DNA from: Planctomycetota bacterium
Lineage (GTDB): Bacteria > Planctomycetota > Planctomycetia > Pirellulales > Pirellulaceae
Reading direction: 5' to 3'
NCBI GenBank assembly: GCA_024276655.1
Contig: JAJRWU010000326.1
Location: 1-64,000 of the forward strand
DNA length: 64,000 nt
Each line of letters opens with the position of its first letter. Within the stretch, counting starts at the first letter, position 1. Position numbers and translations under genes: made by a program. Of this stretch, positions 648-63,257 are shown in pieces. A model generated the notes under the pieces. The model was not told where the DNA came from, ran no database searches, and saw only the letters and a program-made list of their open reading frames with translations.

Positions 648-988
648 TCGAACGTTGAGGTAAAAGTTGCCATCACGAACGAACGTATCGATTAGGAAAA
701 GTGTCGCCAGGGGCCTGGGAGGCCTAGAATATTACGACCTATACCTCGGGCGGCCTGAATTTGCTTGTTGGCATTGCTAAAGTGCAAACACTTCAACTTC
801 AGGCTGCGTTAAGTATAAACAAGATCAACACGCGATAGCTAGACAGCAGTGGTCAGGGACGCCCTCACCGACCCGGCGGCATGTGCGCCGTCAATGGGGT
901 CAATCGAGCATACAACCGGGATTCGTCTCACCTCCGCCTCATCAAACGATTGGGTGTTTGGGCGGTGGAGCACGGAAAGGAAATACTT
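648..988. other. intergenic region upstream of clpX
   Basis: These 341 nt hold no gene that I can support. Several open frames cross into clpX but lack ribosome binding sites. The region presumably carries the clpX promoter; I cannot place -35 and -10 boxes with confidence. No member of the repeat families seen elsewhere is present. Confidence 0.5.
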
Positions 989-14000: not shown

Positions 14001-15226
14001 TCGCGGTCGTAATAGACGAAGGCGATTTTTTTATCTCGGTTCTGCGTGCGGGCCAGTTGCATCCAGGCGATTGCGCGGCCGACCAAATGTTCGATGCGTT
14101 CCGCAATCGGCGTGAACGCTTCGGAACTCCCTCCGCCAACGCGTGTGCCGGCGCCGATTTGCGGCTCAATCGCGCCGCGCAGTTCTTGGCCAATCACGTG
14201 AAAGGCCATTTCGCTGGAGGAAATTCCTTGCAGGTTCGTTTGCCAGTCGGCGATCGATTGCTTGCGGAAGAAAATCGAATGCAAATGCGGCACGCCGAGC
14301 TTCTCCCGAAACGACGTCCTTTCGCGACTGTGGCAAGTGTGAATGACGGCCAGCGGCTTGAACTCCAGCAGGCTTTGTTCGTAGGCCGGTCCCAGATCGA
14401 TCATCGCGACGGCCAGCACGCCCTGTTTTTCGAACGCACGAATGAGCGCCTCCACGACTTTCGGCTGTTGGAAAATGAGGTGTGTCGAATGCACGGCGAT
14501 CACAACGCGCGGCGCGTCTTCCAGCTTGTGGCCTTTGGTCAACTTTCGCTCGCGCGCCCAACGCAAAAACTGCCCGGCGTTCTCGAACAGGCCTTCGTGG
14601 TCGGGATGAAACAACCCGCCGAGGCGTTCACTTTCCACGGGAGGCAAAATGTTGCCGGGACGCTTCAAGTGTGTCACATTGATATAGATCAGCATCCGCT
14701 GGAGGTTCTCGGGCGAGGAGCCGTAATAGGCCTTTAATTTCGGATCGCTTTGGATAACGCCTTGCTTGGTCAGATCCGGCAGATGGCGTTCGGCCAACCC
14801 TGAAATCGAGAAGATTTGTAATTCGGGATTACGTTTTTTGGCGGCGGCGATCAAGCGGCGGTAATGCTCGCGGTCTTCCCCGCGAAGGTGCTGCAAGAAA
14901 ACAGCCCGATACACCGAAAGATCGACTTCTTCCTTGGAAAGCGCCGCGTCTTGCACGTAATCCAGTTGCAGCCCTAGTTCGGGTTCGAACCGCTGAAGAA
15001 CTTCAAAGATACCGCCGTGCAGGCCCACGAAAGCGATGCGGTTGGCGGCTGGAGCGTTGGCGTCGCTAGTCTTTTCTTGTCCCAGCACGGGTTGGCAAAA
15101 AGCGGGTTGACAAAACAGGCAGCACAGCAACGAGCCAACCGCCAGCCGGCTACCAATCCGCCCGGAAATTATTCGCCGAATTAAAAGCCCGACATTTTGA
15201 AAATGCCGGGCTTTGTTGTGCAACAA
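11027..15226 (-). CDS. membrane-anchored CobN/HmuS-like chelatase superfamily protein
   Basis: This is about 1,400 residues of CobN / magnesium-chelatase H-subunit type: RWGPPPGKFLVWENKGQQF, MIHFGTHGTEFMLPGK, VHVSNTMGWKIMRE and NPFAFQEITEILLETVRKGYW are class-typical. CobN normally inserts cobalt in the cytoplasm, but this one has a signal-like N-terminus (RLAVGSLLCCLFCQPAFCQP) and a C-terminal Thr/Pro/Glu-rich linker with one transmembrane helix (LLGIVLAVACLGLILLGYRF), so it should face the periplasm. The two following genes encode ExbB-like and DUF2149 proteins. This is the plan of HmuS in Bacteroidetes haem loci. No CobS, CobT or ChlI/D is near. The start is uncertain: no in-frame ATG exists downstream of the DUF1559 stop; TTG at 15226 or 15223, with GAAGGCGG upstream, is my best choice. 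Confidence 0.85.
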   Translation of the reverse strand: MLHNKARHFQNVGLLIRRIISGRIGSRLAVGSLLCCLFCQPAFCQPVLGQEKTSDANAPAANRIAFVGLHGGIFEVLQRFEPELGLQLDYVQDAALSKEEVDLSVYRAVFLQHLRGEDREHYRRLIAAAKKRNPELQIFSISGLAERHLPDLTKQGVIQSDPKLKAYYGSSPENLQRMLIYINVTHLKRPGNILPPVESERLGGLFHPDHEGLFENAGQFLRWARERKLTKGHKLEDAPRVVIAVHSTHLIFQQPKVVEALIRAFEKQGVLAVAMIDLGPAYEQSLLEFKPLAVIHTCHSRERTSFREKLGVPHLHSIFFRKQSIADWQTNLQGISSSEMAFHVIGQELRGAIEPQIGAGTRVGGGSSEAFTPIAERIEHLVGRAIAWMQLARTQNRDKKIAFVYYDREMGKAELMRGSATGMFMNGPRSLVNVLSQMQKAGYTMPRVPSDEDELVGWMMQRGRQIGIWAPGVLDQLARSGDAVLIPAEQYKTWFETKVPEKQQQALIKRWGPPPGKFLVWENKGQQFIVVPRIELGNVILLPQPLRGEAHDTSLVHDKLVPPPHNYLATYFWLQESFQANAMIHFGTHGTEFMLPGKGVGLSQADWPDVVMGTTPNINPWIINNLGESSPDRRRAYAVLIDHLVPPSVNAELSDELLNLHNDIDKWVVLETGALKKKFREAITKQFREAKLEQDLHINLSDGDLSDGRLLTPAEVEHVLEYLHNIHNETTPVSLHVFGEPPRDDLLIPWIVTCLRKQFRDGLGEVIKVPAEEALNPGDRQKYLRRKAEEIISLVVRQGFGGEEAIRSVGGEFSEKELPDTVKKGIELAERLKDDFARTHNEVDNLLAALDGKFIPPGPGNSPDRNPAVVPTGRNMYVMNPEEVPTRPSWEIGKQLVDQLLAGQMEAKGHYPRKVAFTLNSFATFQDYGVMESQILYLMGVRPVWDARNLVADLELIPAAELARPRIDVFISSLGYYRDMLPTRMRLLDKAVRLVASHKEDENLVYENSLRVRAELEKQGVEPEKAAALSQARIFGGPPGQFGSAGYYYLVEKSGEWDSREELMSTYLGFSRYVYTEGIWGEDAPETYNRHIQGTDVLLRSWADRTRSPLSNKYTWYKGGSLSLAIKHLTGKEPEWFLSDVRDPDQASMVRAEDALRKDYRVRLFNRKWIEGMMKEGYAGADQVAVHVSNTMGWKIMRENSVSDDIWEEIVDIYIRDKRNLNIREWFEAENPFAFQEITEILLETVRKGYWEPSEATLREIATEYARSVARHGEGGGLRGGGNKKLEAFVEQVLSAPGSRELDTLLAEFQAKAKEASTATSASPPVPETEVSESKPVETPTAEAPITEVVTGRELAPESSSPPQPEAPQTWRLLGIVLAVACLGLILLGYRFRRGSPRL
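15183..15214. repeat. R2 palindrome inside the 5' end of the CobN-like gene
   Basis: AAAGCCCGRCATTTT followed by its reverse complement forms a near-perfect hairpin with a tiny loop. If the CobN-like gene starts at TTG 15226, this hairpin encodes part of its N-terminal leader; otherwise it sits between the DUF1559 stop and an unknown start. The same 30-35-bp palindrome recurs at 16354, 20392, 29286, 55061, 56073 and 63182. Confidence 0.8.
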
Positions 15227-16256: not shown

Positions 16257-16353
16257 GAAACATTCATTCCCTTCAACGGATGTGTGTTTAATTTCAATCA
16301 ACGAGCGATCATAAGGAACAACGAAAGGATCAGTTACTGGTCGCTCAGTAAAT

Positions 16354-16384
16354 AAGCCCGGCATTTTCAAAATGCCGGGCTTTT
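16354..16384. terminator. R2 palindrome acting as likely bidirectional terminator
   Basis: AAGCCCGGCATTTT and its reverse complement form a near-perfect hairpin that ends in TTTT. It sits between the small lipoprotein gene and the DUF1559 gene. It is a member of the R2 family; the terminator role is inferred from shape and place. Confidence 0.7.
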
Positions 16385-16417
16385 AATCCGGCAACTAAAT
16401 TCCACGCGGCGCCTTCG

Positions 16418-16733: not shown

Positions 16734-16884
16734 TTAGGCGAGCGGCAGGTGAAAATTTACCTAATACAAGCACGAAGCGCAAGCGAGTGAATCAGTAAAC
16801 GGTCATTCCCGCGTAGGTGGGAACCAAAAAAAAGTCTTGGATTCCCGCCGCGTGCGGGTAAGTTATTTTCCGCCGCTCGCCTTA
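16734..16884 (-). repeat. R4 MITE-like element, copy A (empty site)
   Basis: The terminal inverted repeats TTAGGCGAGCGGCAGGTGAA and its counterpart ending CCGCTCGCCTTA enclose about 100 bp that contain TCACTCGCTTGCGCTTCG on the other strand. Related copies lie at 20019, 43305 and 44397. This copy has the uninterrupted GTATTAGGTAAA site that is split by R5 in copy B. Confidence 0.8.
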
Positions 16885-17621
16885 GGAGCATTCGCGAAAC
16901 AATTGTTCTGTAGTCGCCCGCGGCTTGCCGTTCAACGAACCATTGCTACCGACGCGCCGTATATAATAATTGAGCCTTGCCTTGCCAAGGAAGGGTCCTC
17001 CATGTTTGCCCTCAAACCAAGGGGGGGAGCTAAAGGGCGTCGTCTCGAACAAGCGCCCCCGCTTATCCCCCTTGGCTAGAGGAAAAATGTATTCGCCGCT
17101 CCCTTGGCGCCGCTCGATAAATAACTGTCGCATTTGTGTAGCCATCGTCTTTGTGTAGCCATCGTCGCTAGACGGTGGGTGAGCGGTGAACCATCCCACG
17201 CTCTGGCGAGCATGGCTACGACACTAATTTTTCGATCCTTAGTGCAAACGCCAGGCCAAATCGGGCGCCTCTTCGCTGACGCTGGTTTTACCTGCTGGAG
17301 CAACACGCTCGCCGAAGTAACTACCGGCGATCTGGCGGTTTTTTCGCCTCGCCGGCGAAAACTTGGCCGTCCGGCGCCAACGCGAAAATATTTTGGTGCA
17401 GAGCCCCTTCAGGAAACACAGCCGCCTCAAATGAAACAGACGCTGGCTATGCCAACTGAAACGATCGCGCCCGCAGCCGACGGCTAAACCAGATCAGCTC
17501 GCCTTGGTCACTCTGGCCGCTCCGCCGGACGATAAAAGATGAAACTGGCGCCGCCATTTTTGCTGGGAATCGCCGCCTCTCTCCTCGCAAACACGCGTAA
17601 AACGGCCTGTGCGAGCCGCTT
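16885..17621. other. gene-free region with stacked repeats
   Basis: About 740 nt lie between the small lipoprotein gene and the HemX-like gene. They contain part of a purine-rich stretch with an inverted copy (AACCAAGGGGG near 17017 and CCCCCTTGG near 17067), an R3 element at 17111-17238, and unassigned sequence at 17240-17600. Short open frames here have no ribosome binding site and overlap repeats, so I call none of them. Confidence 0.6.
17111..17238 (+). repeat. R3 palindromic element, copy 1
   Basis: GTGTAGCCATCGTCG on the left pairs with GGCGAGCATGGCTACGACAC on the right around GGTGAGCGGTGAACC. The ends carry CGCTCGAT and CGATCC. In this copy a 17-nt piece of the left arm (TTTGTGTAGCCATCGTC) is repeated in tandem at about 17134-17166. 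Other copies: 19908-20014 and 55164-55280, inverted. Confidence 0.8.
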
Positions 17622-18632: not shown

Positions 18633-19900
18633 AATTGCAAATTGTCGGCTGTAGCCACCATCAATCTTCGCTGGAGGTTAGGGAGCAACTTGCTTTCAGC
18701 CCCGATCAGGCCCGCCTAGCGTTAGGGCGGTTGCGGGAGTTGTATCCCCGTTCGGAGGTGGTGTTGCTCTCCACCTGTAACCGCATGGAGCTATATACGG
18801 CGTCGGACGATCCTCAGTTGTGCCCCAGTCATCGAGAAGTCGTGAACTTTTTGGCCGAATTTCATGGCCTGGATCCTGTCGGTATTTTTGAAGATCTTTT
18901 CGAGCATTCGGGTGAAGACGCAGTTCGACATTTGTTCACCGTGGCGGCCAGTCTGGATAGCATGGTGGTGGGCGAGGGGCAAATTCTTTCGCAGGTCAAG
19001 CAGGCCTACGATTTGGCGAAGTCGGGCAATACGGCGGGTCCTTTAACGCACGCCGTGTTTCAAGCCGCGATTCGCGTGGCCAAGAGCGTCGCCCGCGATA
19101 CCGCGATCCAGCAGAAGCGCGTGAGTATTCCCAGCGTGGCGGTGGCGGATTTTGCCAGCGGCGTGTTCGACTCTTACCACGACAAAAACGTGTTGGTGGT
19201 GGGCGCCGGCGAAATGGCCGAAGAAACGCTTACGTATCTGGTGGCCGAAGGCGCGCGGCATATTCACGTGGTGAATCGAAGTTTCGATCGGGCCGAGAAA
19301 CTGGCCGAACAGTTTTCGGCGCGCGCCGCGCCTTGGACGGAGTTATCGTCGTTGTTGGAGCGGGCTGATATTATCGTCAGCACCACCGGCGCGACAGCGC
19401 CCGTGATTACGCTCGAATCGTTCCAGGCGATTGAGCGCCAGCGGGCGCAGCGGAACTTGGTGCTGTTCGACCTTGCCGTCCCGCGAGATGTCGAATCGGC
19501 AGTCGGCGACTGCTTGGGCGTCTACCTCTACACGATCGACGACTTGCAACAAACCTGCGAGGCGAATCGTAGGGCGCGAGAGAAGGAATGGCCCAAGGCG
19601 GAAAAAATCATCGAAGATGAAACCACTCGTTTCATGGTCGATTTGAATCACCGCGCCACCGGCCCCACCATCAGACGGCTCCGCTCGCAGGCCGATGATA
19701 TCAAGAACGAAGAGTTGACTCGCCTGCTCAACAAACTGGCCGATCTTGACGATCGCTCGCAAAACGAAATCCGGCGTTCGTTTGATCGCCTGGTCAATAA
19801 AATGCTACACCCGCCCTTGGAAACATTGCGAGACGCCGCCAAGGAAGGCCCGCCGCACGGCCTCTTGGAAGCCCTCCGCGATCTCTTCAAAATCCACTAA
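18629..19900 (+). CDS. hemA: glutamyl-tRNA reductase
   Basis: This enzyme reduces glutamyl-tRNA(Glu) with NADPH to glutamate-1-semialdehyde, the first committed step of tetrapyrrole synthesis. It has 423 residues. LSTCNRMELY holds the catalytic Cys50, and GEGQILSQVKQAYDLA and VLVVGAGEMAEETL (NADPH-binding Rossmann fold) follow, then the C-terminal dimerisation helices ending KMLHPPLETLRDAA. The ATG at 18629 has AGGAGG upstream, overlaps the HemX-like stop and yields a standard N-terminus. The rest of the haem pathway is not in the window. Confidence 0.96.
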   Translation: MKLQIVGCSHHQSSLEVREQLAFSPDQARLALGRLRELYPRSEVVLLSTCNRMELYTASDDPQLCPSHREVVNFLAEFHGLDPVGIFEDLFEHSGEDAVRHLFTVAASLDSMVVGEGQILSQVKQAYDLAKSGNTAGPLTHAVFQAAIRVAKSVARDTAIQQKRVSIPSVAVADFASGVFDSYHDKNVLVVGAGEMAEETLTYLVAEGARHIHVVNRSFDRAEKLAEQFSARAAPWTELSSLLERADIIVSTTGATAPVITLESFQAIERQRAQRNLVLFDLAVPRDVESAVGDCLGVYLYTIDDLQQTCEANRRAREKEWPKAEKIIEDETTRFMVDLNHRATGPTIRRLRSQADDIKNEELTRLLNKLADLDDRSQNEIRRSFDRLVNKMLHPPLETLRDAAKEGPPHGLLEALRDLFKIH

Positions 19901-19907
19901 GCACCGT

Positions 19908-20014
19908 TCGCGAAATTAGTGTCGTAGCCATGCTCGCCAGAGTGGGATGGTTCACCGCTCACCCACCGTCTGGCGACGATGGCTACACAAATGCGACCGT
20001 TATTTATCGAGCGG
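19908..20014 (-). repeat. R3 palindromic element, copy 2
   Basis: It matches 17111-17238 in inverted orientation, with GTGTCGTAGCCATGCTCGCC at one end and CGACGATGGCTACACAAATG at the other. It begins 8 nt after the hemA stop codon. Its right end (ATCGAGCGG) runs directly into the interior of an R4 element. Confidence 0.8.
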
Positions 20015-20018
20015 TCCT

Positions 20019-20226
20019 TAGCCGCACGCAGCGGGAGTCCGGGAGTTTTTTTGGGGGTTCCCGCTTGCGCGGGAATGACCGTTTGCTGATTCACTCGCTT
20101 GCGCTTCGTGCTTGTATTATACCTTCTAACACAACTTGGTAGGTCAGCATCAAACTCCGTGTGTGAAATGCCAAACAGGGGTTATGTTAGGAGCTCTAGG
20201 TAAATTTCCATCTGCCGCTCGCCTAA
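20019..20226 (+). repeat. R4 MITE-like element, copy B, carrying a nested R5
   Basis: The interior GATTCACTCGCTTGCGCTTC and the right terminal repeat CATCTGCCGCTCGCCTAA are present. The left terminal repeat is missing; R3 is joined at about 20015. R5 is inserted at 20120-20196. Confidence 0.78.
20120..20196 (-). repeat. R5 77-bp element nested in R4
   Basis: It is flanked by TA on both sides (20118-20119 and 20197-20198). The empty site GTATTAGGTAAA is seen in R4 copy A (opposite strand, about 16765). The ends carry CTAACACAAC and GTTATGTTAG as an inverted pair. A second copy is at 43192-43268 in the other orientation. Confidence 0.8.
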
Positions 20227-20391
20227 CACGATAGACACGGAATATTTCTCGGAATTCTAAAATTGCTCTTCTTGCCCGGGCGTTGGTATGTGAAATTAGG
20301 AGAAGCGGTCGGATGGTCGATCCAATTCATCGACTGCAAAGTGATCGAATCCTAGAAAACATGGAATAGTTAAATCCCGAATTGGCGCCGG

Positions 20392-20424
20392 AGAAGCCCG
20401 GCTTTTTGAAAAAGCCGGGCTTCT
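20392..20424. repeat. R2 palindrome (AGAAGCCCGGC variant)
   Basis: AGAAGCCCGGCTTTTT and its reverse complement meet at a single central base. It lies upstream of the M28 peptidase gene. The same variant recurs at 29286-29318. Confidence 0.8.
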
Positions 20425-20475
20425 GAATCGGGAAGTCGTTTTTCCACACTTCCCCGCCGAAGCGAAAGCGTGTTC

Positions 20476-29251: not shown

Positions 29252-29285
29252 CTTTTGGAATTGTGGAAAAGCGACTGCCCGGCTC

Positions 29286-29318
29286 AGAAGCCCGGCTTTT
29301 TCAAAAAGCCGGGCTTCT
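29286..29318. terminator. R2 palindrome, likely terminator of the Fur-family gene
   Basis: AGAAGCCCGGCTTTTT and its reverse complement form a perfect hairpin 35 nt after the Fur-family stop and 28 nt before queC. It is identical in design to 20392-20424. Confidence 0.65.
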
Positions 29319-29345
29319 AATTCGACATAAAAATTCGAGAAGCAC

Positions 29346-43180: not shown

Positions 43181-43191
43181 CCTTAGTCTTA

Positions 43192-43268
43192 GAACTCCTA
43201 ACATAACCCCTGTTTGGCGTTTCAAACGCGGAGTTTGATGCTGACCTACCAAGTTGTGTTAGAAGGTA
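43192..43268 (+). repeat. R5 77-bp element, solo copy
   Basis: It runs from GAACTCCTAACATAACCCC to AAGTTGTGTTAGAAGGTA and is the same length as the nested copy at 20120-20196, in opposite orientation. It begins 11 nt after the stop codon of the preceding gene, with TA on its left. Confidence 0.8.
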
Positions 43269-43304
43269 TTAGCACCTGTCCAAGATCTATTCCGTGTAAT
43301 GGTG

Positions 43305-43456
43305 TTAGGCGAGCGGCAGATAAAAGTTTACCCGCATGCAACGGGAGTCCGTGAGTTTTTTTGGGTTCCCACCCACGCGGGCACGACCGTTTGCTGATTC
43401 ACTCGCTTGCGCTTCGTGCTTGTATATAGGTGAATTTTCATCTGTCGCTCACTTTA
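43305..43456 (+). repeat. R4 MITE-like element, copy C
   Basis: TTAGGCGAGCGGCAGATAAA at the left pairs with TTTCATCTGTCGCTCACTTTA at the right. The interior has GATTCACTCGCTTGCGCTTC. Its right terminal repeat covers the last codons and stop of the TM2 protein gene. Confidence 0.8.
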
Positions 43457-44396: not shown

Positions 44397-44546
44397 TTAG
44401 GCGAGCGCCGGAAAATAACTACCCGCACGCAACGGGAATCCGTGAGTTTTTTTGGGTTCCCACCCACGCGGGAATGACCGTTTTCTGATTCACTCGCTTG
44501 CGCTTCGTGCTTGTATTAGGTGAATTCTTTTCCGCCGCTTGCCTTA
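44397..44546 (+). repeat. R4 MITE-like element, copy D
   Basis: TTAGGCGAGCG at the left pairs with CCGCTTGCCTTA at the right, with an interior as in copies A to C. The final TTA (44544-44546) is the complement of the UbiB-family stop codon. The stretch before it, GCACCCTGCCCAAGATATAT, also precedes copy C. Confidence 0.8.
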
Positions 44547-55008: not shown

Positions 55009-55060
55009 GAAGAGCCAGAGCGCTGCCTTGGCGTTCCCCCCCAAAATTTGTCTGCAAATG

Positions 55061-55096
55061 AAAAGCCGGGCATTTTGAAAATGCCGGGCTTTTTTT
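55061..55096 (+). terminator. R2 palindrome as terminator of the cheY-like gene
   Basis: AAAAGCCGGGCATTTT is paired with AAAATGCCGGGCTTTT with one mismatch, followed by more Ts. It is a member of the R2 family placed 52 nt after the stop codon. Confidence 0.75.
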
Positions 55097-55163
55097 CGCC
55101 ACAACCGCCGGGCTTTTGCGCTGGGTAACCGTTGTTCTGCTTTTCCGTGACGCCTTATTTAGC

Positions 55164-55280
55164 ATCGAGCGGAAAATTAGTGTCGTAGCCATGCTCGCCA
55201 GAGAGCGTGGGATGGTTCACCGCTCACCCACCGTCTGGCGGACGATGGCTACACAAATGCGACAGTTATTTATCGAGCGG
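55164..55280 (-). repeat. R3 palindromic element, copy 3
   Basis: It matches copy 2 over nearly the whole length: GTGTCGTAGCCATGCTCGCC, then GATGGTTCACCGCTCACCCA, then GATGGCTACACAAATGCGAC. Both ends carry ATCGAGCGG. It ends 4 nt before the stop codon of the lipoate ligase-family gene. Confidence 0.82.
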
Positions 55281-55283
55281 TAT

Positions 55284-56024
55284 TTACCGGCAAAAATTCC
55301 AATGGTCGCTTGAGTATTTCTCCACAACCAATTGTTGCGTCGCCGCCGCGGGCCATGCTGAGCGCGATTCCTCGGCGCCGAACGCCAGCATGATTGCCGA
55401 CTTCAGCCCGTCAGAATCGGTGTGGAGGTTCGCCACGAAGTCATCGTGCGAGCGCCCACGGCGGTAGTCGGGTTGGCGCGGAGCCGTGCGCAGGCATTTT
55501 CCGATCAGAGCGAGAGGGAAGTCATGCAGCAAGGCGCCATGATACAGCAACGTGTTTCGCAGCACTCGGAGACTGTTGCCGGAAACCTTTCGGTCGGCAA
55601 CCGTGAGGTCGCTCACGCCCGATATTTCCACCTCCAGCGATAACCCGCGCAACGCCGTTTGGATTCGACCCAGCACGAATCGATGCGCCGCCGACACGAC
55701 CCGCAACTCGGCGTGCTGGTCAAGATCCAAGATCAGGCTGTACATCAGGCAACCGGGGCCCATCAGAACACTCGCTCCACCGCTCGTTCGCCGCAAAATA
55801 GGAATATTTTGTTGGCGGCAAAACGCTTGGTCCACTTCGTCGGCCACTTGCGAACTTCGCCCCACCACGACCGCCGTGGAGGCGGGCGCCCAAAGCCTCA
55901 AAATGCCGTCCGCCCGATTCGCGGCGCCTGGCTCGCGGGACCTTTGTTCAAAGGAATTCAGCAACGCTTCGTCGAGCGCGAGGTTGGCGGCGGCGGTTTC
56001 CAGGGTTAGGTCCAGCAGTTGCAT
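55284..56024 (-). CDS. lipoate-protein ligase A / octanoyltransferase (LplA-LipM) family protein
   Basis: This 246-residue protein of the BPL/LplA/LipB fold has ILRLWAPASTAVVVGRSSQ, then RRTSGGASVLMGPGCLMYS (the RRxSGG motif) and DLTVADRKVSGNSLRVLRN with the lysine expected to bind the acyl-adenylate. The opening LTLETAAANLALDEALL is typical. It attaches lipoate or octanoate to E2/GcvH domains. No lipA is close. ATG 56024 gives the family start. The last residues (NFCR) lie at the edge of an R3 repeat. Confidence 0.87.
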   Translation of the reverse strand: MQLLDLTLETAAANLALDEALLNSFEQRSREPGAANRADGILRLWAPASTAVVVGRSSQVADEVDQAFCRQQNIPILRRTSGGASVLMGPGCLMYSLILDLDQHAELRVVSAAHRFVLGRIQTALRGLSLEVEISGVSDLTVADRKVSGNSLRVLRNTLLYHGALLHDFPLALIGKCLRTAPRQPDYRRGRSHDDFVANLHTDSDGLKSAIMLAFGAEESRSAWPAAATQQLVVEKYSSDHWNFCR

Positions 56025-56072
56025 GATTTCGGATCTGACAGCCGATTTGAGTGGGCGACCACGTCCTCGTTT

Positions 56073-56105
56073 AAAAGCCCGGCATTTTGAAAATGCCGGG
56101 CTTTT
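56073..56105. repeat. R2 palindrome
   Basis: AAAAGCCCGGCATTTT and its reverse complement meet at one central base. It lies in the divergent gap between the lipoate ligase-family gene and the HEAT-repeat gene, where a terminator for those two genes is not expected. Confidence 0.8.
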
Positions 56106-56295
56106 CCGAACGGCAACCGGCAACTCATTTACGCACGAATAATTTATGGGCGAACTCATTGCCCATCGAACTACGACTGAACATTTTAGCCCGGCTTTGA
56201 CGGCAAACACTCCGGTGGCCCGCCGCGCTCGCCTTTCGGATTGTGCCGTTGGTGGTAAACTGTACACGGTACGTTTCACGAGGGGGAGGCCACAG

Positions 56296-58552: not shown

Positions 58553-60211
58553 ATGTCTGGTACGTTCGGTTTTAGGAAATGTGAAGCGACGCCGTCTCGG
58601 TTCAAGCGCCCCGAATGGTTGCAAGTCCATGCTTTGAGGCCATTGATTCGGGCCCGCATTATTACGCCCTTTTTTATTCTCGCTTTGATCTTGCCGTTGG
58701 CGGCGAAGTCGTTCTCGTTCTTCTTAAAAGAAGCCGCCGGAGAAGACGTCGTTTTCAATTCGCCCGATGAGCCGACGCTGGGCTTGGGGCTGATCAAAAC
58801 TTCCGCCGCTCCCGCCCGGTCGCGGAGCGAACGAGAAGACTCCGGGCCGGTCGTTTTGGAATCGACCAAAAAACGAACCGTGTCGTCTAGACGCCGCAAT
58901 ACAACAGACGTCAAGCGAAAAAAATCAGCCAGCGCCGCCGCCCTCAACCCGAGAAAACCGAAAAAAATCGCCTCGCGCGTCGAGTTGGCGCCGCCCACGC
59001 CGCCCACGCCGCCCACGCCAATCACGCCAATCACGCCAATCACGCCGCCCACGCCGCCCACGCCGCCCACGCCAATCACGCCAATCACGCCAATCACGCC
59101 AATCACGCCGCCCACGCCAATCACGCCAATCACGCCAATCACGCCAATCACGCCAATCACGCCAATCACGCCAATCACGCCAATCACGCCCGAACCAAGC
59201 CGCCCTGCATTAAGCCGTCGCCAGCGACAGTTGCGAGATTCGATCGACGCCACACTTTCGCTCTACGCACGACGCGTGGAAAACGTGGGGAATCGGAACT
59301 GCTGGGAAATCATGCATTGGCTGATCGGCTACGGCGTTGAGGCGAAGGTATCGGTGCGAGGACGCTCGGCCAACGCGATCGGCTGGCTGTGTCAGAACGG
59401 GCGTTGCAAAGGCACGCAGCTATTTCATTTATCGGGTGAGCGATTGCAAGCCCGCGTTGGCGTCGGCGTGCAGGGGCACCACGGGCAGTTTTTGGCCATG
59501 TTAGCGCAATCGAAAGTGAAACAAGAATATCCGATTGTTGTTGGCGGCCGCAAATTTACGCTTGCCGACCTGATCGCGTTTGAACAAGGGAATTGCCGTC
59601 TTGGCGAAGAGCTGACCTTCAAGCTCATCGCTTTCTCCCATTACCTCCCGCTCGACGCCAAATGGCAAAACAGGCAGGGCCAGAAATGGGATATCCCGCG
59701 ACTGATCCAGGAAGAACTCAAGCAGCCGGTCGTGGGCGCCGCCTGTGGTGGAACGCACCGACTGATGGGAATCTCTTACGCGGCTCGGAAAAGACAAGCC
59801 AGCGGGCAGCCGCTGGAGGGGCAATGGAAACGCGCCGAAAAATACATCGACGACTTCCAAATCTATACGCTGCGTTTGCAAAACCGAGACGGCAGCTTCA
59901 GCACCGATTGGTTCAAGGGACGGGCCGATTCCGGCGACGCCGCTCGAAAACTCCAAACCACCGGCCACATTGCCGAATGGCTGACCTACTCACTGCCCGA
60001 AGAAGAATTGCATGGCCCTCAAATGACCAAGGCGATCGGCTTCTTGGCGTCGTTAATGCGAAAACACGCTCGCAAAAAATGGGAAAGCGGTCCTCAAGGA
60101 CACGCCATTCGCGCGTTGCGGCTTTACCGAGAACGCGCCTTCCCCGAGCCGGATTCGCTCCATCCCCATGAAGAATTGGCCGGGCCATCGTCGACCAAAC
60201 AACCCCGCTGA
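58553..60211 (+). CDS. exported protein with Thr-Pro tandem-repeat linker
   Basis: This 552-residue protein has an N-terminal membrane segment at about 36-52 (ITPFFILALILPLAAKSF), a basic Ser/Arg-rich part, then residues about 147-212 made of 22 TPP or TPI triplets. The C-terminal 330 residues are a globular domain with NCWEIMHWLIGYGVEAKV, GVQGHHGQFLAMLAQSKV, VVGAACGGTHRLMGISYA and GHIAEWLTYSLPEEEL; the His/Cys-rich blocks hint at an alpha-toroid like the terpene-cyclase fold, but I do not recognise the family. The repeat probably spans the cell wall or extends the domain from the membrane. Confidence 0.8.
   Translation: MSGTFGFRKCEATPSRFKRPEWLQVHALRPLIRARIITPFFILALILPLAAKSFSFFLKEAAGEDVVFNSPDEPTLGLGLIKTSAAPARSRSEREDSGPVVLESTKKRTVSSRRRNTTDVKRKKSASAAALNPRKPKKIASRVELAPPTPPTPPTPITPITPITPPTPPTPPTPITPITPITPITPPTPITPITPITPITPITPITPITPITPEPSRPALSRRQRQLRDSIDATLSLYARRVENVGNRNCWEIMHWLIGYGVEAKVSVRGRSANAIGWLCQNGRCKGTQLFHLSGERLQARVGVGVQGHHGQFLAMLAQSKVKQEYPIVVGGRKFTLADLIAFEQGNCRLGEELTFKLIAFSHYLPLDAKWQNRQGQKWDIPRLIQEELKQPVVGAACGGTHRLMGISYAARKRQASGQPLEGQWKRAEKYIDDFQIYTLRLQNRDGSFSTDWFKGRADSGDAARKLQTTGHIAEWLTYSLPEEELHGPQMTKAIGFLASLMRKHARKKWESGPQGHAIRALRLYRERAFPEPDSLHPHEELAGPSSTKQPR
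58991..59188 (+). repeat. 22 x 9-bp tandem repeat in coding sequence
   Basis: Units are CCGCCCACG (PPT) or CCAATCACG (PIT), ordered 3 PPT, 3 PIT, 3 PPT, 4 PIT, 1 PPT, 8 PIT. All are in frame. Units of one kind are identical at DNA level, including the third bases, which points to recent slippage or unequal exchange and not to selection on protein alone. Confidence 0.97.
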
Positions 60212-63152: not shown

Positions 63153-63181
63153 TGATGAATAAGTTACCGGTGGTGGTTCAG

Positions 63182-63214
63182 AAAAACCCGGCATTTTCAA
63201 AATGCCGGGCTTTT
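63182..63214. repeat. R2 palindrome
   Basis: AAACCCGGCATTTT is paired with AAAATGCCGGGCTTTT. It lies between the helicase and dehydratase genes, which converge, so it may end both transcripts. Confidence 0.75.
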
Positions 63215-63257
63215 AACTTGGGCGATTCTCAACCGCTGCGTAAGCCGCCTCTCGCGA

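Follow-up and report, generated by a model that had tools for sequence, protein, structure and literature searches.

R5, a 77-bp mobile repeat of probable IS5 type with a TWA target duplication, nests reciprocally with the repeat R4 in a planctomycete genus

Introduction

Several described systems bear comparison with the short repeat considered here, termed R5. Bacterial MITEs of the IS630/Tc1-mariner type are, like R5, short inverted-repeat elements with a TA-containing insertion core, and they duplicate TA (2 bp); R5 differs from them in duplicating TWA and in having ends that match those of IS5 elements. PIF/Harbinger (Tourist) MITEs have a TWA target. These elements, which are eukaryotic and are likened to R5 by target duplication rather than by sequence comparison, show a 3-bp target duplication (PMC2213677). 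Members of the IS1031 subgroup of IS5, such as ISLrh, duplicate a 3-bp TNA (PMC12016507), a type of duplication shared with R5, but the ends of ISLrh (GAACCTGTCTAGTATCT) are unlike those of R5 past the first bases. The ISMra6-like group of IS5 (DUF4096 plus DDE_Tnp_1; NF033580) has in common with R5 both ends of the GAGNNYCTAACAMAAC type and a 3-bp TWA duplication at CTWA(G). These elements are ~0.85-0.97 kb long and carry a transposase gene, whereas R5 spans 77 bp and has no gene.

The stretch of DNA analyzed here (the window; 64,000 nucleotides) is part of a planctomycete assembly of 5.96 Mb in 328 contigs (G000, the "own" genome). Comparisons were made with a sister species from the same genus (G001) at ~94% identity. 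Copy statistics cover ~0.94 Mb from the own genome and 0.3 Mb from G001, in both cases taken from the surroundings of R5 copies.

Results

The window contains one copy of the repeat R4 that is empty for R5 and one that is filled (Table 1). Copy A reads CTTGTATTAGGTAAATTTTC without a break (minus strand, ~16760), whereas copy B reads CTTGTATTA-[77 bp: TACCTTCTAACACAAC...GTTAGGAGCTC]-TAGGTAAATTTCC, with R5 in the middle, and both sequences are as an earlier note on this DNA had described them. The statement in that note that the copies differ only by the 77-bp insert and a TA holds for the 12-bp site itself but not elsewhere, given ~10% divergence outside the site and the missing left end of copy B. 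A solo R5 of equal length is present where the note had placed it and is 95% complementary over 80 nt to the R5 of copy B, though its flanks are TTA rather than TA. Read in R5 orientation, the flanks in copy B are CTA on one side and TAA on the other, placing this copy among five in which CTA lies opposite TAA or TTA. The note had inferred a TA target because TA alone is common to both sides here. No Rfam family matched anywhere in the window.

Table 1. Positions of R5, R4 and other repeats in the window
Feature	Coordinates	Strand	Remarks
R5 MITE (probable) within R4 copy B	20120..20196	-	77 bp; minus strand is the orientation GAGCTCC...GGTA; empty at G001 orthologue
TA, left target-duplication copy	20118..20119	.	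atypical, 2 bp
TA, right target-duplication copy	20197..20198	.	
R4 copy B, segment before R5	20022..20119	+	without outer left end; adjoins another repeat
R4 copy B, segment after R5	20197..20226	+	
R4 copy A	16737..16881	-	145 bp, empty for R5; TAA flanks at 16734-16736 and 16882-16884
R4, further copies	43307..43425, 44407..44544		
Solo R5	43192..43268	+	TTA on both sides (43189-43191, 43269-43271)
Empty R5 target, TAA in GCTAAAG	778..780	+	R5 with TAA on both sides at G001 orthologue
Repeat with GCACCG(T/C)TCG ends	19900..20018, 17110..17237, 55161..55292		
Terminator-like hairpins	15160-15217, 16329-16386, 20369-20426, 29263-29320, 55038-55095, 56050-56107, 63159-63216		
9-bp tandem repeat	58935..59231		~20 units

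The decisive comparison is with G001, where the R4 orthologous to copy B has the sequence CTTGTATTAGATATATTTCCATCTG, followed by the same unique downstream sequence, and contains no R5. Identity over the adjoining sequence is 93-96%, and the downstream flank is the basis for the orthology, the G001 contig consisting upstream of a partial R4 and unrelated sequence up to its end. R5 is thus a mobile element that entered R4 copy B. In four further orthologous pairs the difference consists of R5 and exactly 3 bases: two sites are filled in the own genome (C81 and C150) and empty in G001, and two are filled in G001 (C71 and C35) and empty in the own genome (C304 and window 778-780, respectively). 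For the R5 present at own C304:6198, where the alignment is shifted, the comparison is GCCTTTA[R5]TTAGGCTG versus GCCTTTAGGCTG. Another seven R5 sites are filled in both species and, together with the filled and empty pairs, they indicate that R5 moved both before and after the species split.

A search for further copies by the ends of R5, which the earlier note had recommended, gave 77 matches in the 5.96-Mb genome (≤3 mismatches) as compared with 0 for a reversed control pattern, so the repeat is not a product of chance. These matches, along with the empty orthologous sites and the duplicated targets, bear out the view that R5 is a discrete 77-bp non-autonomous mobile unit. It displays the features of a MITE: it is 77 bp long without a transposase gene, its ends (GAGCTCCTAACATAAC and TACCTTCTAACACAAC) agree at 12/16 positions, and it is present in many copies, accompanied by duplicated targets and by empty sites. 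No R5 was found in 58 genomes outside the genus, and an exact scan of a genome-contig collection returned a match only in Planctomycetaceae bacterium SZUA-33, which is probably G001. A shortened R5 of ~60 bp, composed of two left ends face to face, lies between TAA and TTA on G001 contig C90 (L183 1155-1215).

The flanks of these copies define the target. Among the 79 R5 matches listed with their flanks (~0.94 Mb of own sequence), identical triplets occur on both sides in 55 of the 70 intact copies with usable flanks (TAA in 35, TTA in 20); in G001, 20 of 21 copies have identical TWA triplets on both sides. The triplets represent a true duplication and not a fixed end of the element, because the middle bases of the left and right triplets vary together. 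The triplet is mostly preceded by C and mostly followed by G, which makes CTWAG the preferred target. Within it, R5 therefore duplicates three bases, either TTA or TAA, and the window copy is an exception, sharing its TA-only duplication with a few other copies.

These data bear directly on the proposal of the earlier note, by which R5 would be a MITE of the IS630/Tc1-mariner type with TA as both its target and its duplication. The junction in R4 copy B does duplicate TA alone, also when compared with the G001 orthologue, and every TWA target contains a TA. However, the 3-bp triplets with their covarying middle base match in 75/91 intact copies from the two species, the duplication is exactly 3 bp in the four orthologous pairs, the ends of R5 match IS5 elements, and no DDE_3 domain (PF13358) of the IS630 type was found in the own genome, the one genome searched for it, whose assembly may be incomplete. 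The TA target is thus replaced by TWA, the IS630/Tc1 enzyme finds no support in domains or ends, and the proposal is largely refuted and extremely improbable.

The possibility that R5 originally belonged to R4 and was lost by deletion from most copies was the alternative named in the earlier note, and it does not survive inspection of the R4 copies. In its favor, five of these copies, from the two genomes combined, have R5 at one and the same position. Nonetheless, in the sequence examined R5 is absent from the GTATTAGG site of R4 in 34 own copies and 12 from G001, and present there in 4 and 1, respectively, so that most R4 copies (46/51) lack it. In addition, R5 stands alone at dozens of unrelated sites with target duplications, is inserted at the same site but in the opposite orientation in the R4 copy of contig C202, and is missing from the G001 orthologue of copy B. 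The probability of an ancestral origin within R4 is therefore negligible.

The same copies raise the question of whether R5 entered an R4 only once, with the resulting composite then transposing as a whole, since a shared position and orientation of R5 is seen in three copies of the own genome and one of G001. Against this stand the inverted R5 in C202, the variation of the junctions among copies, and the presence in G001 of an R4 without R5 at the copy-B locus. Because G001 has this R4 without R5, the R5 at the locus arrived after the R4, and a single-insertion composite is excluded for the window copy unless R5 was precisely excised in G001. As a general account of the filled R4 copies, the composite is highly improbable.

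R4 serves as a recipient and is also a mobile element. R4 is 145 bp long, has inverted ends (GGCGAGCGGC) and is mainly flanked by TTA or TAA on both sides; matching flanks, mainly TAA or TTA, were present in 13/22 intact own copies and 7/13 G001 copies. On own contig C46 (L047 10491-10800) the nesting is reversed, with R4 situated inside R5 and CAA on both sides. R4 thus also duplicates TWA and has jumped into an R5, and the two repeats nest reciprocally.

Other repeats accompany R5. Another repeat adjoins R5 (≥5 matches, ≤56 bp) in 40/69 cases as compared with 28/400 random positions, a control that disregards the intergenic preference of the repeats. A repeat with ends GCACCG(T/C)TCG...CGAGCGGT often has R5 beside it, in the same TWA, and is missing at the G001 orthologue of window position 19900. 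Also present in the window are a 9-bp tandem repeat (CGCCAATCA / CGCCGCCCA) and perfect terminator-like hairpins, AAGCCCGGC(A/T)TTTT(C/G)AAAA(A/T)GCCGGGCTT, which recur intergenically.

The ends of R5 resemble the ends found in complete elements of the IS5 family that likewise duplicate TWA. Two such elements were read to both ends, one from Paracoccus (GAGTGCCTAACAAAAC/GAACACCTAACAAAAC) and ISMra6 (GAGCGTCTAACAAAAC/GAGCCTCTAACAAAAC); each has a TAA duplication, contains DUF4096 and DDE_Tnp_1, and reaches the NCBIfam NF033580 cut-off. With the Paracoccus transposase as query, relatives were detected in 57/196 genomes, and the seven best-scoring loci are planctomycete elements of 903-967 bp with CTAACA-type ends, one of them with GAGACCCTAACACAACCC, and TTA or TAA duplications. 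Compared with the ends from G001, ISMra6 and the Paracoccus element, R5 agrees at 13/16 positions on the left and at 10-12/16 on the right, and one R5 copy, near C104:33500, begins with exactly GAGTCCCTAACACAAC. Scored against IS5 ends, 19,825 post-TWA positions in the own sequence examined form a two-peaked distribution with a separate group at 11-16/16.

A search of both genomes with the R5 left end recovered not only R5 copies but also the ends of three G001 contigs (C1, C8 and C297), in which CTWA and GAGTCCCTAACACAAC are followed by other sequence. A collapsed multi-copy IS makes contigs stop inside the repeat; these three break off in what is probably the parent IS of R5. One G001 contig end encodes ...RDDIHEGFMTLAEALICLNFINAELC, with the stop codon inside the terminal repeat; the best matches of this 26-residue fragment in a plasmid collection are, where annotated, transposases of the IS5 family (52-77% identity in short segments, with weak E-values), and it had no match in Pfam and NCBIfam. 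A further search located the same end in own contig C109 (L194 1-187), in which 29 bp of the presumed parent left end are followed, up to the contig end, by sequence unlike that of G001; another IS has possibly inserted there. Contig-end fragments are all that either assembly holds of the parent, an IS5 transposase query giving no match and no full gene in G000 and G001, and the presumed left end was not found in viral contigs. As for other transposases, an IS5 remnant at G001 C95 (L197) was rejected as the parent for want of R5-type ends, and two DDE_Tnp_1 matches (C326 and C88) appear to be broken remnants of other transposases and were not linked to the ends of R5. DDE_Tnp_4 (PF13359) was not found in the own genome.

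Discussion

Taken together, R5 is very probably a non-autonomous MITE of the IS5 family, with features of the ISMra6-like group in both its ends and its TWA target duplication. This assignment draws on 16-bp ends (the right one agreeing at only 10-12/16 positions), the duplication, and the 26-residue fragment with its weak E-values. A putative transposase, encoded by an IS5 element of this genus that is partly assembled and has ends GAGTCCCTAACACAAC, would recognize the ends of R5 and move it, presumably by binding the CTAACAYAAC core common to both ends. The 77-bp unit would then be inserted into CTWAG through cuts staggered by 3 bases. At R4 copy B, the TA-only duplication could stem either from an infrequent kind of insertion with 2 bp duplicated or from a 3-bp duplication that later lost one base. 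Conceivably, a single transposase of IS5 type, unusually permissive in the ends it recognizes, could mobilize R4, R5 and the other palindromic repeats of this genus, which have different ends and the TWA target in common, as a self-nesting community in which each duplicated CTWAG is the next landing site, although this is very unlikely.

R5 itself is new, while IS5-derived MITEs are of a known kind. The transposase family and the target rule suggested by a single copy of R5 are now corrected, and one filled and empty pair is insufficient for reading off a target duplication. For this uncultured planctomycete genus, R5 represents an expansion of a MITE, in all probability of IS5 type, that is verified by orthologues in two species, with filled and empty sites, insertions in both orientations, and reciprocal nesting with R4.
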